A stretch of DNA of 64,000 nucleotides. It comes from Streptomyces sp. TG1A-8. GTDB lineage: Bacteria > Actinomycetota > Actinomycetes > Streptomycetales > Streptomycetaceae. This document shows positions 20,393 through 36,373 of this stretch, piece after piece (the first letter of the stretch is position 1; each line of letters starts with the position of its first letter). Made by a program: the position numbers and the translations under genes. The stretch is taken from the NCBI RefSeq assembly GCF_030499535.1, contig NZ_JASTLB010000001.1:2976001-3040000 (forward strand). Direction: 5' to 3'. Under the pieces are notes generated by a model. It was not told where the DNA came from and did not search any database. It saw only the letters and a list, made by a program, of their open reading frames with translations.

Positions 20393-21919
20393 TCACCGGA
20401 ACAGGCCGGTGGCCGCGAAGCCCAGGACGAGCTGGGGCGCTCCGGACAGGGCGACGCCGAGGACTCCGGTGAGGGCGAGGGCCGCGGTGAGCGGCGCCGG
20501 GGCGCGGTGCCGGACGGGTTCGCCCTCGGGGGCGCGGAAGAGCAGGGCCGTCCACCGCAGGTAGTAGACGAGGGCGATCACCACGTTGACGGCCATGACG
20601 GCGGCGAGCCAGCCGAGACCCGCGTCGACGGCCACCGAGAAGACGGTGACCTTCGCGAACAGGCCGATGACGCCCGGGGGCAGTCCGGCCAGGCACAGCA
20701 GGAAGAAGGCCAGCAGGAGCGCGGTGAGCGGGTGGGAGGCGTACAGGCCCCGGTAGTCGCTGATCCGGTTGCGGGACCGGGTGCGGCCCACCAGGGCGGC
20801 CACCGTGAAAGCGCCGAGGTTCACGGCGGCGTACATGAGCGCGTAGGCGACGGTGGAGCCGATCGCCTTCCGGGCGTCGTCGGCGTGTCCGGCGGCGGCG
20901 ACCGGTACCAGGAGGTAGCCGGCCTGGCCGACGGAGGACCAGGCGAGCAGGCGTACGGCGCTGTGCGCGCGCGTGGCCCGCTGGCGCAGGGCGCCGACGT
21001 TGCCGGCGGTCATGGTGAGGGCGGCCAGGACGGCGAGCGCGGGCCCCCAGACGTCGGAGTAGGAGGGGAAGGCGACGACGGTGACGAGGATCAGGCCGGA
21101 GAGGCCGACCGCCTTGCCGACGACCGACAGGTAGGCGGCGACGGGCAGGGGCGCGCCCACGTAGGTGTCGGGCACCCAGAAGTGGAAGGGGACGGCGGCC
21201 GTCTTGAAGGCGAAGCCGACCAGGGTGAGGACGACACCGGTCTGGACGAGGATGTGGAGCCGGCCGTCGACGTGCGGGAGGCGCTGGGCGACCTGGGTGA
21301 GGTAGAGGGTGCCGGTGGAGGCGTAGACGAAGCTGACGCCCATGAGGCTGACCGCGGTGGCGGTGACCGAGGAGAGGAAGAACTTCAGGGCCGCCTCGGA
21401 GGACCTCTTGTCGCCGAGCCGGATGCCGACGAGGGCGAAGGCGGGCAGGGAGGCGACTTCCAGGGCGACGACGAGGGTGGCGAGGTCGCGGGAGGCGGGC
21501 AGCAGGGCGGCGCCGGCCGCGGAGGACAGCAGCAGGAACCAGAACTCGCCCGCCGGGACGCGCCGGCGGTCGTCCTGGAGGTGGGTGACGGACAGCAGGG
21601 CGGCGAGCAGGGCGCCGCCGAGGACCAGGAACTGGATGACGAGGGTGAAGCGGTCGGCGGTGTAGCTGCACGCGCGGGGGTGGCCGGTGAGGCAGAAGGT
21701 GCTGCGGTCGCCGTCGAGGAGGGGCAGCAGCATCAGTGCGGCGGCGGCGAGGCCCGCGACCGAGGTCCAGCCGAGGAGGGACTTGCGGGCCTCGGGCACG
21801 AACAGGTCGGCGACGAGGACGGCGAGCCCCACGGCGGCGGCGGTGGTGGGCGGTGCGATGGCGAGCCAGTCGACGGACTGGACCGCCGACTGGGCCAGCG
21901 GCTGGACCAGGGCGCTCAT
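20393..21919 (-). CDS. nuoN2: NADH-quinone oxidoreductase-like subunit N (second operon)
   Basis: 508-residue antiporter-like membrane subunit, the last gene of the partial nuo operon. It has about 14 hydrophobic segments. Typical NuoN/Mrp features: VGFAFKTAAVPFHFWVPDTYVGAPLPVAAYLS (residues about 225-255), LLAWSSVGQAGYLLVP, and LLAFFLLCLAGLPPGVIGLFAKVTVF with the conserved Lys near the end. The ATG at 21919 overlaps the nuoM2 stop (ATGA). It should translocate protons in a complex I-like machine. Confidence 0.93.
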   Translation of the reverse strand: MSALVQPLAQSAVQSVDWLAIAPPTTAAAVGLAVLVADLFVPEARKSLLGWTSVAGLAAAALMLLPLLDGDRSTFCLTGHPRACSYTADRFTLVIQFLVLGGALLAALLSVTHLQDDRRRVPAGEFWFLLLSSAAGAALLPASRDLATLVVALEVASLPAFALVGIRLGDKRSSEAALKFFLSSVTATAVSLMGVSFVYASTGTLYLTQVAQRLPHVDGRLHILVQTGVVLTLVGFAFKTAAVPFHFWVPDTYVGAPLPVAAYLSVVGKAVGLSGLILVTVVAFPSYSDVWGPALAVLAALTMTAGNVGALRQRATRAHSAVRLLAWSSVGQAGYLLVPVAAAGHADDARKAIGSTVAYALMYAAVNLGAFTVAALVGRTRSRNRISDYRGLYASHPLTALLLAFFLLCLAGLPPGVIGLFAKVTVFSVAVDAGLGWLAAVMAVNVVIALVYYLRWTALLFRAPEGEPVRHRAPAPLTAALALTGVLGVALSGAPQLVLGFAATGLFR

Positions 21920-35319: not shown

Positions 35320-36373
35320 CGCCACCCGCGAACTGCTGCAGCTGGTCCCCAAGGCCGGGGCCAAGCAGTCGATGAAGGACTTCAAGTCCGACCAGGAGGT
35401 GCGCTGGTGCCCGGGCTGCGGCGACTACGCCATCCTGGCCGCCGTGCAGGGGTTCATGCCGGAGCTGGGACTGGCGAGGGAGAACATCGTCTTCGTCTCG
35501 GGCATCGGCTGCTCCTCCCGCTTCCCGTACTACATGAACACCTACGGGATGCACTCCATCCACGGCCGCGCCCCGGCCATCGCGACCGGTCTCGCGGCCT
35601 CGCGGCGGGACCTGAGCGTGTGGGTGGTCACCGGTGACGGCGACGCCCTGTCCATCGGCGGCAACCACCTGATCCACGCCCTGCGCCGCAACGTCAACCT
35701 GAAGATCCTGCTCTTCAACAACCGGATCTACGGTCTGACCAAGGGCCAGTACAGCCCGACCTCCGAGGTCGGCAAGATCACCAAGTCGACGCCGATGGGG
35801 TCGCTGGACTCGCCGTTCAACCCGGTGTCGCTGGCGATCGGCGCGGAGGCGTCCTTCGTCGCGCGCACGATCGACTCCGACCGCAAGCACCTGACCGAGG
35901 TGCTGCGCGCGGCGGCCGACCACCCGGGCACGGCGCTGGTCGAGATCTACCAGAACTGCAACATCTTCAACGACGGCGCGTTCGACTCCCTGAAGGACCG
36001 GCAGCGGGCCGAGGAGGCGCTGATCCGCCTGGAGCACGGGCGGCCGGTCCGCTTCGGGGCGGACGGGTCCCGGGGCGTCGTGCGGGACCGGCGGACCGGC
36101 GACCTGCGGGTGGTGACGGTGACGCCTCAGAACGAGGCGGACGTCCTGGTGCACGACGCGTACTCCGCGTCGCCCACCACCGCCTTCGCGCTCTCCCGCC
36201 TCGCCGACCCCGACACGCTGCACCACACCCCGGTCGGCGTGTTCCGGTCGGTCGAGCGGCCGGTCTACGACACGCAGATGAGTGACCAGCTCGACGCGGC
36301 CGTCGAGCAGCACGGCAAGGGCGACCTGGCCGCGCTGCTGGCCGGCGGGGACACCTGGACCGTCATCGGCTGA
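35312..36373 (+). CDS. korB: 2-oxoacid:ferredoxin oxidoreductase, beta subunit
   Basis: 353-residue thiamine-diphosphate subunit. The [4Fe-4S]-ligand cysteines are C33 and C36 (RWCPGCGDYA) and C67 (GIGCSSRFP); a fourth lies later (YQNCNIFNDG). The TPP motif is GDGDALSIGGNHLIHALRRNVNLKILLFNN (108-137). No separate delta ferredoxin subunit is encoded, so a soluble ferredoxin must take the electrons. Start is inside the korA end, indicating translational coupling. Confidence 0.94.
   Translation: MSDATRELLQLVPKAGAKQSMKDFKSDQEVRWCPGCGDYAILAAVQGFMPELGLARENIVFVSGIGCSSRFPYYMNTYGMHSIHGRAPAIATGLAASRRDLSVWVVTGDGDALSIGGNHLIHALRRNVNLKILLFNNRIYGLTKGQYSPTSEVGKITKSTPMGSLDSPFNPVSLAIGAEASFVARTIDSDRKHLTEVLRAAADHPGTALVEIYQNCNIFNDGAFDSLKDRQRAEEALIRLEHGRPVRFGADGSRGVVRDRRTGDLRVVTVTPQNEADVLVHDAYSASPTTAFALSRLADPDTLHHTPVGVFRSVERPVYDTQMSDQLDAAVEQHGKGDLAALLAGGDTWTVIG

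Follow-up and report, generated by a model that had tools for sequence, protein, structure and literature searches.

The NDH-1 complexes of cyanobacteria and plastids are complex I relatives that lack the subunits NuoE, NuoF, and NuoG (the NADH-binding module) and are fed by ferredoxin. Within bacteria, the nuoABCDHIJKLMN genes of Desulfitobacterium hafniense encode eleven subunits without NuoEFG; their electron donor has not been identified, and the same report treats the donor of NADH-module-free complex I as an open question and notes ferredoxin feeding for cyanobacteria (PMC11238625). In Streptomyces, a second nuo set has been described, consisting of A2, B2, D2, and H2-N2 with a separate D2 (PMC3765725, 2013), as a set with a separate nuoD2 and with nuoJ noted (PMC8388888, 2021), and as a nuo2 without C, D, E, F, G, and L and with no clear function (PMC9239103). 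With these accounts, both the nuo2 set of Streptomyces and the separately located nuoD2 are on record, as a first-pass annotation of the present DNA had supposed for the partial operon. NuoC2 is missing from all three gene lists as far as their excerpts go, and the same excerpts mention neither the MidA linkage, the tryptophan, nor the arm-less relatives discussed below. Here, these systems are compared with the nuo2 locus in a window of Streptomyces sp. TG1A-8, i.e., the whole stretch of 64,000 nucleotides analysed (contig NZ_JASTLB010000001.1, positions 2,976,001 to 3,040,000), which is of the same locus type as SCO4599-4608 with the unlinked nuoD2.

The best explanation, to which we give a probability of about 0.6, is that the Nuo2 proteins would form an NADH-independent, eleven-subunit complex I relative that pumps protons and takes electrons from a low-potential donor, likely ferredoxin, with its subunit NuoD2 encoded at a distance beside a midA gene. 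The operon is real and appears intact. Ten genes lie on the minus strand from 30604 to 20393 in the order nuoA2-B2-C2-H2-I2-J2-K2-L2-M2-N2, almost contiguous and with several 4-bp overlaps, and no NuoE, NuoF, or NuoG was found by profile scans among the open reading frames (ORFs) of the operon. Genome-wide, the NuoF family comprises the canonical copy and one orphan fusion, NuoE and NuoG having been searched in the operon ORFs only. As read from the sequences, both 4Fe-4S motifs are complete in NuoI2, and NuoB2 carries the ligands of cluster N2; NuoL2, NuoM2, and NuoN2 are full length and retain the antiporter Glu/Lys positions, and the E-channel residues are apparently retained as well. On the tight operon, the missing NADH module, the complete cluster ligands, and the full-length antiporter subunits, the first-pass annotation was thus correct. 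The best PDB match of both NuoL2 and NuoN2 is cyanobacterial NDH-1, and NuoB2 had no PDB match at E 1e-25. The arrangement is not a product of chance, since the 80 best NuoH2 relatives (90-97% identical) have nuo2-like surroundings as far as their contigs reach.

The same annotation had noted the lack of a nuoD, suggested a search for a second one elsewhere, and proposed that NuoD is borrowed from the canonical operon at the other end of the window. The lack holds for the operon itself but not for the genome: a search with the 49-kDa family recovered a second, full-length nuoD at C1:3204712-3205857, ~198 kb from nuoA2, which encodes 382 amino acids (aa) from its likely start, has the usual N- and C-terminal motifs, and is ~40-41% identical to NuoD1. 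The canonical operon lies only partly at the far end of the window (NuoH1, C1:3036126-3037112), and its nuoD (C1:3041893-3043119) is actually ~2 kb outside. A NuoD hidden in the long nuoC2 ORF was also considered and ruled out, as this ORF comprises a NuoC domain and a low-complexity tail; no NuoD domain occurs between C2 and H2, and C2 runs directly into H2. Across 148 genomes of the class, NuoD2-type matches are distinct from NuoD1, which reached at most ~237 bits among the matches listed and over a shorter stretch. The genome lists for NuoD2 and nuoH2 were set by reading such score gaps and then used for the co-occurrence tables; NuoD2 is present in 67 of the 148 genomes and in 39 of the 41 with nuoH2, the two misses being assemblies that are 72% and 80% complete. 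With a dedicated NuoD2 encoded in the genome and co-occurring with nuoH2, the borrowing of NuoD1 is rejected.

In a phylum-level sample of 296 genomes, a NuoD2-like match at E 1e-75 or better was present in 161, from which 20 loci were chosen by the analyst. All eleven genes (A-D and H-N) stand together in 15 of them, in each case with tryptophan at the position of the quinone-binding tyrosine (Tyr87 of Thermus Nqo4), and no NuoF or NuoG match was detected in the fetched stretch of these 15 loci (NuoE was not searched). The other five have tyrosine, two with NuoF/G matches and three without. Streptomyces nuo2 is most readily interpreted as this eleven-gene operon in split form. Compared with D. 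hafniense, the subunits are the same, whereas Nuo2 is divided over two loci with NuoD2 beside midA, and its hosts also possess a 14-subunit enzyme; the tryptophan is a feature read in Nuo2. NDH-1 differs in that NdhH retains the tyrosine.

With regard to the quinone site, NuoD2 residues 80 and 31 align gap-free with Thermus Tyr87 and His38, respectively. Residues were counted in 41 of the 67 NuoD2 sequences, i.e., 20 with nuoH2, one from a decayed operon, and 20 without nuoH2 that were labelled arm-less (G067 among them, for its lack of nuoH2 only). Position 80 is tryptophan in all 41 and tyrosine in the NuoD1 of four genomes, while the histidine is retained in 40/41. The Asp139 position is acidic in all 20 full forms and in 5/20 of those without nuoH2. 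Tyr87 hydrogen-bonds the quinone and has been termed essential for complex I activity (PMC7434922, PMC5552823). The type of quinone alone would not account for the change, since the same organisms retain tyrosine in NuoD1. As the eleven-subunit class is defined by its subunit set, quinone-site residues bear on function rather than on membership. As far as the literature search shows, the tryptophan at this position of NuoD2 appears to be new.

The second distinguishing feature is a gene of the MidA/NDUFAF7 methyltransferase family (PF02636) beside nuoD2, which in the genome of the window scores 70.7 bits against a cut-off of 23.3. Of 40 loci compared, 34 have a MidA match in the vicinity of nuoD2, usually in the order NadC-PanC-DUF2520-MidA-NuoD2 and at distances that range from direct adjacency to ~7 kb. 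As for the exceptions, L091 stops short of the expected place, the copy in L109 is ~11 kb off, and no match was found at nuoD2 in L120, L121, L124, and L125. PF02636 occurs in 59 of the 67 NuoD2 genomes of the class versus 5 of the other 81 (family-level table 23/2/2/12, p=1.8e-6), and two of the eight misses (G020 and G128) have a MidA match by tblastn. It was reported that NDUFAF7 dimethylates Arg85 of NDUFS2 (PMC3829151) and that this modification is conserved in Paracoccus, the arginine of Escherichia coli being unmodified (PMC3750175). The equivalent NuoD2 residue, 57, is arginine in 41/41 NuoD2 sequences and threonine in the four NuoD1 read. The combination of a PF02636 protein and a conserved arginine resembles the NDUFAF7 system, and NuoD2 is predicted to be a MidA substrate; the difference is that NDUFAF7 acts on NDUFS2, whereas action on a bacterial NuoD2 is a prediction. 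No description of a link between NuoD2 and MidA in actinobacteria was found in the open-licence literature, and both the linkage and the co-distribution appear new within the reach of that search.

Some actinobacteria have NuoD2 without the membrane arm. A NuoB-family search of 25 genomes revealed a second, divergent NuoB gene, often adjoining korA, in those with NuoD2 and without nuoH2. In the class, 28 genomes have NuoD2 and no nuoH2, 24 of which were examined for a nuoB-nuoC-nuoI (BCI) module (G016, G060, G067, and G097 were left out): 22 have BCI only, G030 has a decayed operon, and the operon of G070 is of the full type and truncated by the end of its contig. The three genes are together in all 20 fetched regions, to which G096 and G015 add two. 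No match to A or H was found in the 20 regions, and J-N matches there score like canonical copies. Exactly one NuoH-family gene is present in 17 of 21 NuoD2 genomes without nuoH2; the extras are one fragment in G036, low-scoring matches in G011 and G020, and a truncated gene plus a low-scoring match in G030. The modules adjoin korA or lie within ~3 kb of it in 13 of 22 cases, and for eight of the other nine, nuoN1 and no KorA was found on the same fragment. Simple decay is rejected, as the N2 cysteine motifs of NuoB and both cluster motifs of NuoI are retained in 22/22. The PRQ motif is absent from all 22 arm-less NuoB and present in 20 of 22 full-form NuoB, the remaining two (G005 and G033) being cut by contig ends, and the NuoI profile match begins at about position 17-40, without the N-terminal stretch. 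The nuo2 of G030 (L128 9547-13079) comprises only A, B, C, a truncated H, and I, with no J-N alongside, and its reduction is apparently a separate event. Genes labelled by eye as CorA-like and HtpX-like lie downstream of BCI modules. Carriers include a Motilibacter, and the relatives found for one arm-less NuoD, at 56-57% identity, belong to Nanopelagicales.

In a concatenated tree, which the software flagged for long branches and compositional heterogeneity, the arm-less forms fall into one clade (approximate likelihood-ratio support, SH-aLRT, 100) nested among the full forms (supports 90 and 92). Several independent losses of the membrane arm had been considered, since families f14 and f28 contain both forms; the tree instead places the arm-less forms together. 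The polarity rests on outgroup logic, because a topology uniting the full forms in a single clade was also compatible with the data (approximately unbiased test, p-AU 0.224). A soluble complex would be the simplest reading, since no membrane partner was found for the NuoB-C-D-I (BCDI) proteins; docking on the nuo1 membrane arm is a possible alternative. We propose tentatively, at somewhat less than even odds, an actinobacterial soluble NuoB-C-D-I relative of complex I, a likely MidA substrate whose genes often adjoin korAB, that would use a non-membrane acceptor at the former quinone site (tryptophan for tyrosine, the Asp139-type acid mostly lost), with Streptomyces Nuo2 as its membrane-bound sister. 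The term NuoBCDI refers to other arrangements in part of the literature, judging from the excerpts available. The open-licence literature yielded no description of an arm-less NuoBCDI module in actinobacteria, and as far as these searches show, the putative soluble module appears new.

Briefly, in the eleven-subunit reading, NuoI2 would receive electrons from a carrier of low potential, which is most likely reduced ferredoxin and in part supplied by KorAB. Cluster N2 in NuoB2 would take them over and hand them to an acceptor at the NuoB2-NuoD2-NuoH2 site, and this transfer would power proton pumping via NuoL2, NuoM2, and NuoN2. MidA would probably methylate Arg57 of NuoD2 during assembly. In other actinobacteria, the membrane arm is absent, and a presumably soluble BCDI module remains that would pass electrons to an acceptor. 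Several points weigh against this reading. The loss of Tyr87 argues against standard quinone reduction, because a residue called essential is replaced by tryptophan; with the acceptor site so changed, ordinary menaquinone reduction by Nuo2 is likely but not certain. Nor is the tryptophan simply a mark of the absent NADH module, since three of the five Tyr-type phylum-level loci also have no nearby NuoF/G match. The arginine is present in 20/20 phylum-level loci regardless of a MidA gene nearby (near nuoN2 in 3/20). The donor cannot be told from synteny, KorA and NuoD2 show no co-distribution at the family level, and G128, a 100% complete genome, has nuo2 and no korA match. In addition, the retention of the antiporter residues was judged by eye on single alignments, and the association counts were corrected for phylogeny by a family tally only.

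The case for KorAB as a dedicated electron donor to Nuo2 rests largely on gene neighbourhood. The first-pass annotation had placed korAB, without a ferredoxin subunit of its own, less than 3 kb from nuo2 beyond a two-component system, and both observations stand: korA starts ~2.8 kb past the start of nuoA2 on the opposite strand, and none of the scanned ORFs neighbouring korB is a ferredoxin. To our knowledge, no acceptor for the electrons of KorAB has been established in aerobic actinobacteria. The further proposal, that ferredoxin reduced by KorAB feeds NuoI2, had been offered as new; an oxoacid:ferredoxin oxidoreductase has already been suggested as donor of the eleven-subunit Desulfitobacterium enzyme (PMC11238625). 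Among the 41 class genomes with nuoH2, korA lies within 8 kb of nuoH2 in 26; in G095 the distance is 1.6 Mb, and the remaining 14 have korA on a different contig or no korA match, several of these being uninformative because a contig end cuts them. The nuoA2 and korA matches are divergent and ~80-370 bp apart in five loci that belong to four other families (L129, L132, L142, L145, and L147). KorA is on the same fragment in 58 of the 80 nearest NuoH2 relatives, a biased set; of the 22 fragments without it, 21 stop short of the usual korA place, and L025 ends about where korA would begin. The adjacency is thus borne out, but it is not peculiar to nuo2, because korA lies within 32 kb of nuoH1 in 27 of 33 NuoD2-less genomes, hand-picked from the 58 with korA and without NuoD2. 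Moreover, korA occurs in 118/148 class genomes, including 58/81 without NuoD2, and is absent from 7/67 with NuoD2 (family-level association, p=0.61); no KorA match was found in the 20 phylum-level loci. In G143, as in G095, nuo2 is away from korA, and in G022 a NuoF-like gene occupies the korA place. Higher abundance in Streptomyces coelicolor than in Streptomyces lividans has been reported for SCO4594 and for SCO4599-4608, the NADH dehydrogenase proteins, but canonical complex I behaves likewise, and SCO4595 follows a different pattern. Ferredoxin is therefore a plausible donor, though not a nuo2-specific one, and the link to KorAB is possible and unspecific; a loop restricted to KorAB is doubtful despite the neighbourhood and the korA-linked BCI modules. 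The window's genome also encodes a second KorA, 83% identical (G000:C1:6666440-6668335).

A different donor (F420H2, flavodoxin, or an NADH-oxidising NuoF-like protein) seems improbable. The NuoF-like gene of G022 (L143 8355-9533) is divergent from nuo2, and the orphan NuoF-ferredoxin fusion in the window's genome would fit such a donor, but among the class loci mapped, a NuoF match beside nuo2 was found in G022 only, the adjoining canonical operon of G034 aside (F420 and flavodoxin genes were not searched). That Nuo2 works in reverse, spending the proton gradient to reduce ferredoxin for biosynthesis, is quite improbable: the conserved pump residues would permit it, but it leaves the arm-less BCDI modules unexplained. 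It was also proposed in print that Nuo2 subunits serve as exchangeable parts of the canonical 14-subunit complex (the one with NuoD1 and NuoEFG) and adjust it in the course of development (PMC9239103, PMC3765725). We consider such a hybrid very improbable, given the divergence of NuoD2 from NuoD1, its co-occurrence with nuoH2, and the eleven-gene sets with a further nuo set alongside, as seen in 8 of the 20 phylum-level loci. As separate observations, the G022 gene lies near an apparent RuBisCO large-subunit start (by eye), and the orphan NuoF-like protein, which has a C-terminal ferredoxin-like part (G000:C1:4790499-4790987, L087), adjoins a membrane protein that by eye resembles a ferric-reductase-type cytochrome.

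The features of the locus are listed in Table 1. The nuoB2 ORF extends 323 bp into nuoC2 in a different frame, whereas the overlap is 10 bp or less in 66 of 67 close relatives (exception L019), so the end of NuoB2, flagged as anomalous in the earlier annotation, is out of register with its relatives and may reflect a frameshift or an assembly error. The NuoC domain of NuoC2 occupies the first ~150 residues and is followed by a ~330-residue low-complexity, Pro/Ala-rich tail (~28070-29100 of the window). NuoC2 length ranges from ~186 to 664 aa in the 67 close relatives (a single one is not titled Streptomyces) and from ~167 to 246 aa in the listed non-Streptomyces full-type loci (L129, cut by a contig end, excluded). 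An M48 peptidase gene follows nuo2 in many related loci as well. In S. coelicolor, the AbrC two-component genes adjoin the corresponding NADH dehydrogenase genes (PMC9739823).

Table 1. Genes of the nuo2-korAB region, in window positions, with the evidence for each assignment.
Feature	Position	Strand	Evidence and remarks
M48 peptidase gene after nuoN2	19346..20368	-	PF01435
nuoN2, 508 aa	20393..21919	-	PF00361 and NuoN models; TIGR01770 304.3 bits vs cut-off 332.6; start by motif
nuoM2, 524 aa	21916..23490	-	TIGR01972 548.9 bits, above cut-off
nuoL2, 677 aa	23497..25530	-	TIGR01974 459.4 bits, above cut-off
nuoK2, 126 aa	25527..25907	-	PF00420
nuoJ2, 212 aa	25907..26545	-	PF00499
nuoI2, 186 aa, both 4Fe-4S motifs complete	26542..27102	-	Fer4 domains; NuoI models top but below cut-offs
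nuoH2, 322 aa	27105..28073	-	PF00146 334.8 bits
nuoC2, 494 aa	28070..29554	-	PF00329 at residues 30-148; Pro/Ala-rich tail
nuoB2 ORF, 321 aa	29232..30197	-	PF01058; conserved part 29551-30197 with N2 ligands
nuoA2, GTG start (upstream ATG at 30679 possible)	30188..30604	-	NuoA models, below cut-offs
Sensor histidine kinase between nuo2 and korAB	30951..32045	+	PF13796, PF07730
LuxR-type response regulator	32199..33032	+	PF00072, PF00196
korA, 2-oxoacid:acceptor oxidoreductase alpha subunit	33391..35319	+	TIGR03710 652.9 bits, above cut-off
korB, beta subunit	35312..36373	+	TIGR02177 248 bits vs cut-off 261.9; PF02775 (thiamine pyrophosphate, TPP, domain) above Pfam cut-off

The tryptophan in place of tyrosine in an otherwise intact pump offers a test of the role of Tyr87, and Streptomyces is a tractable system for this group of enzymes, in which nuo2, nuoD2, midA, and korAB can be deleted separately. 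If expressed, the arm-less BCDI modules would demonstrate that the membrane part is dispensable for the working of the electron-transfer core of complex I.

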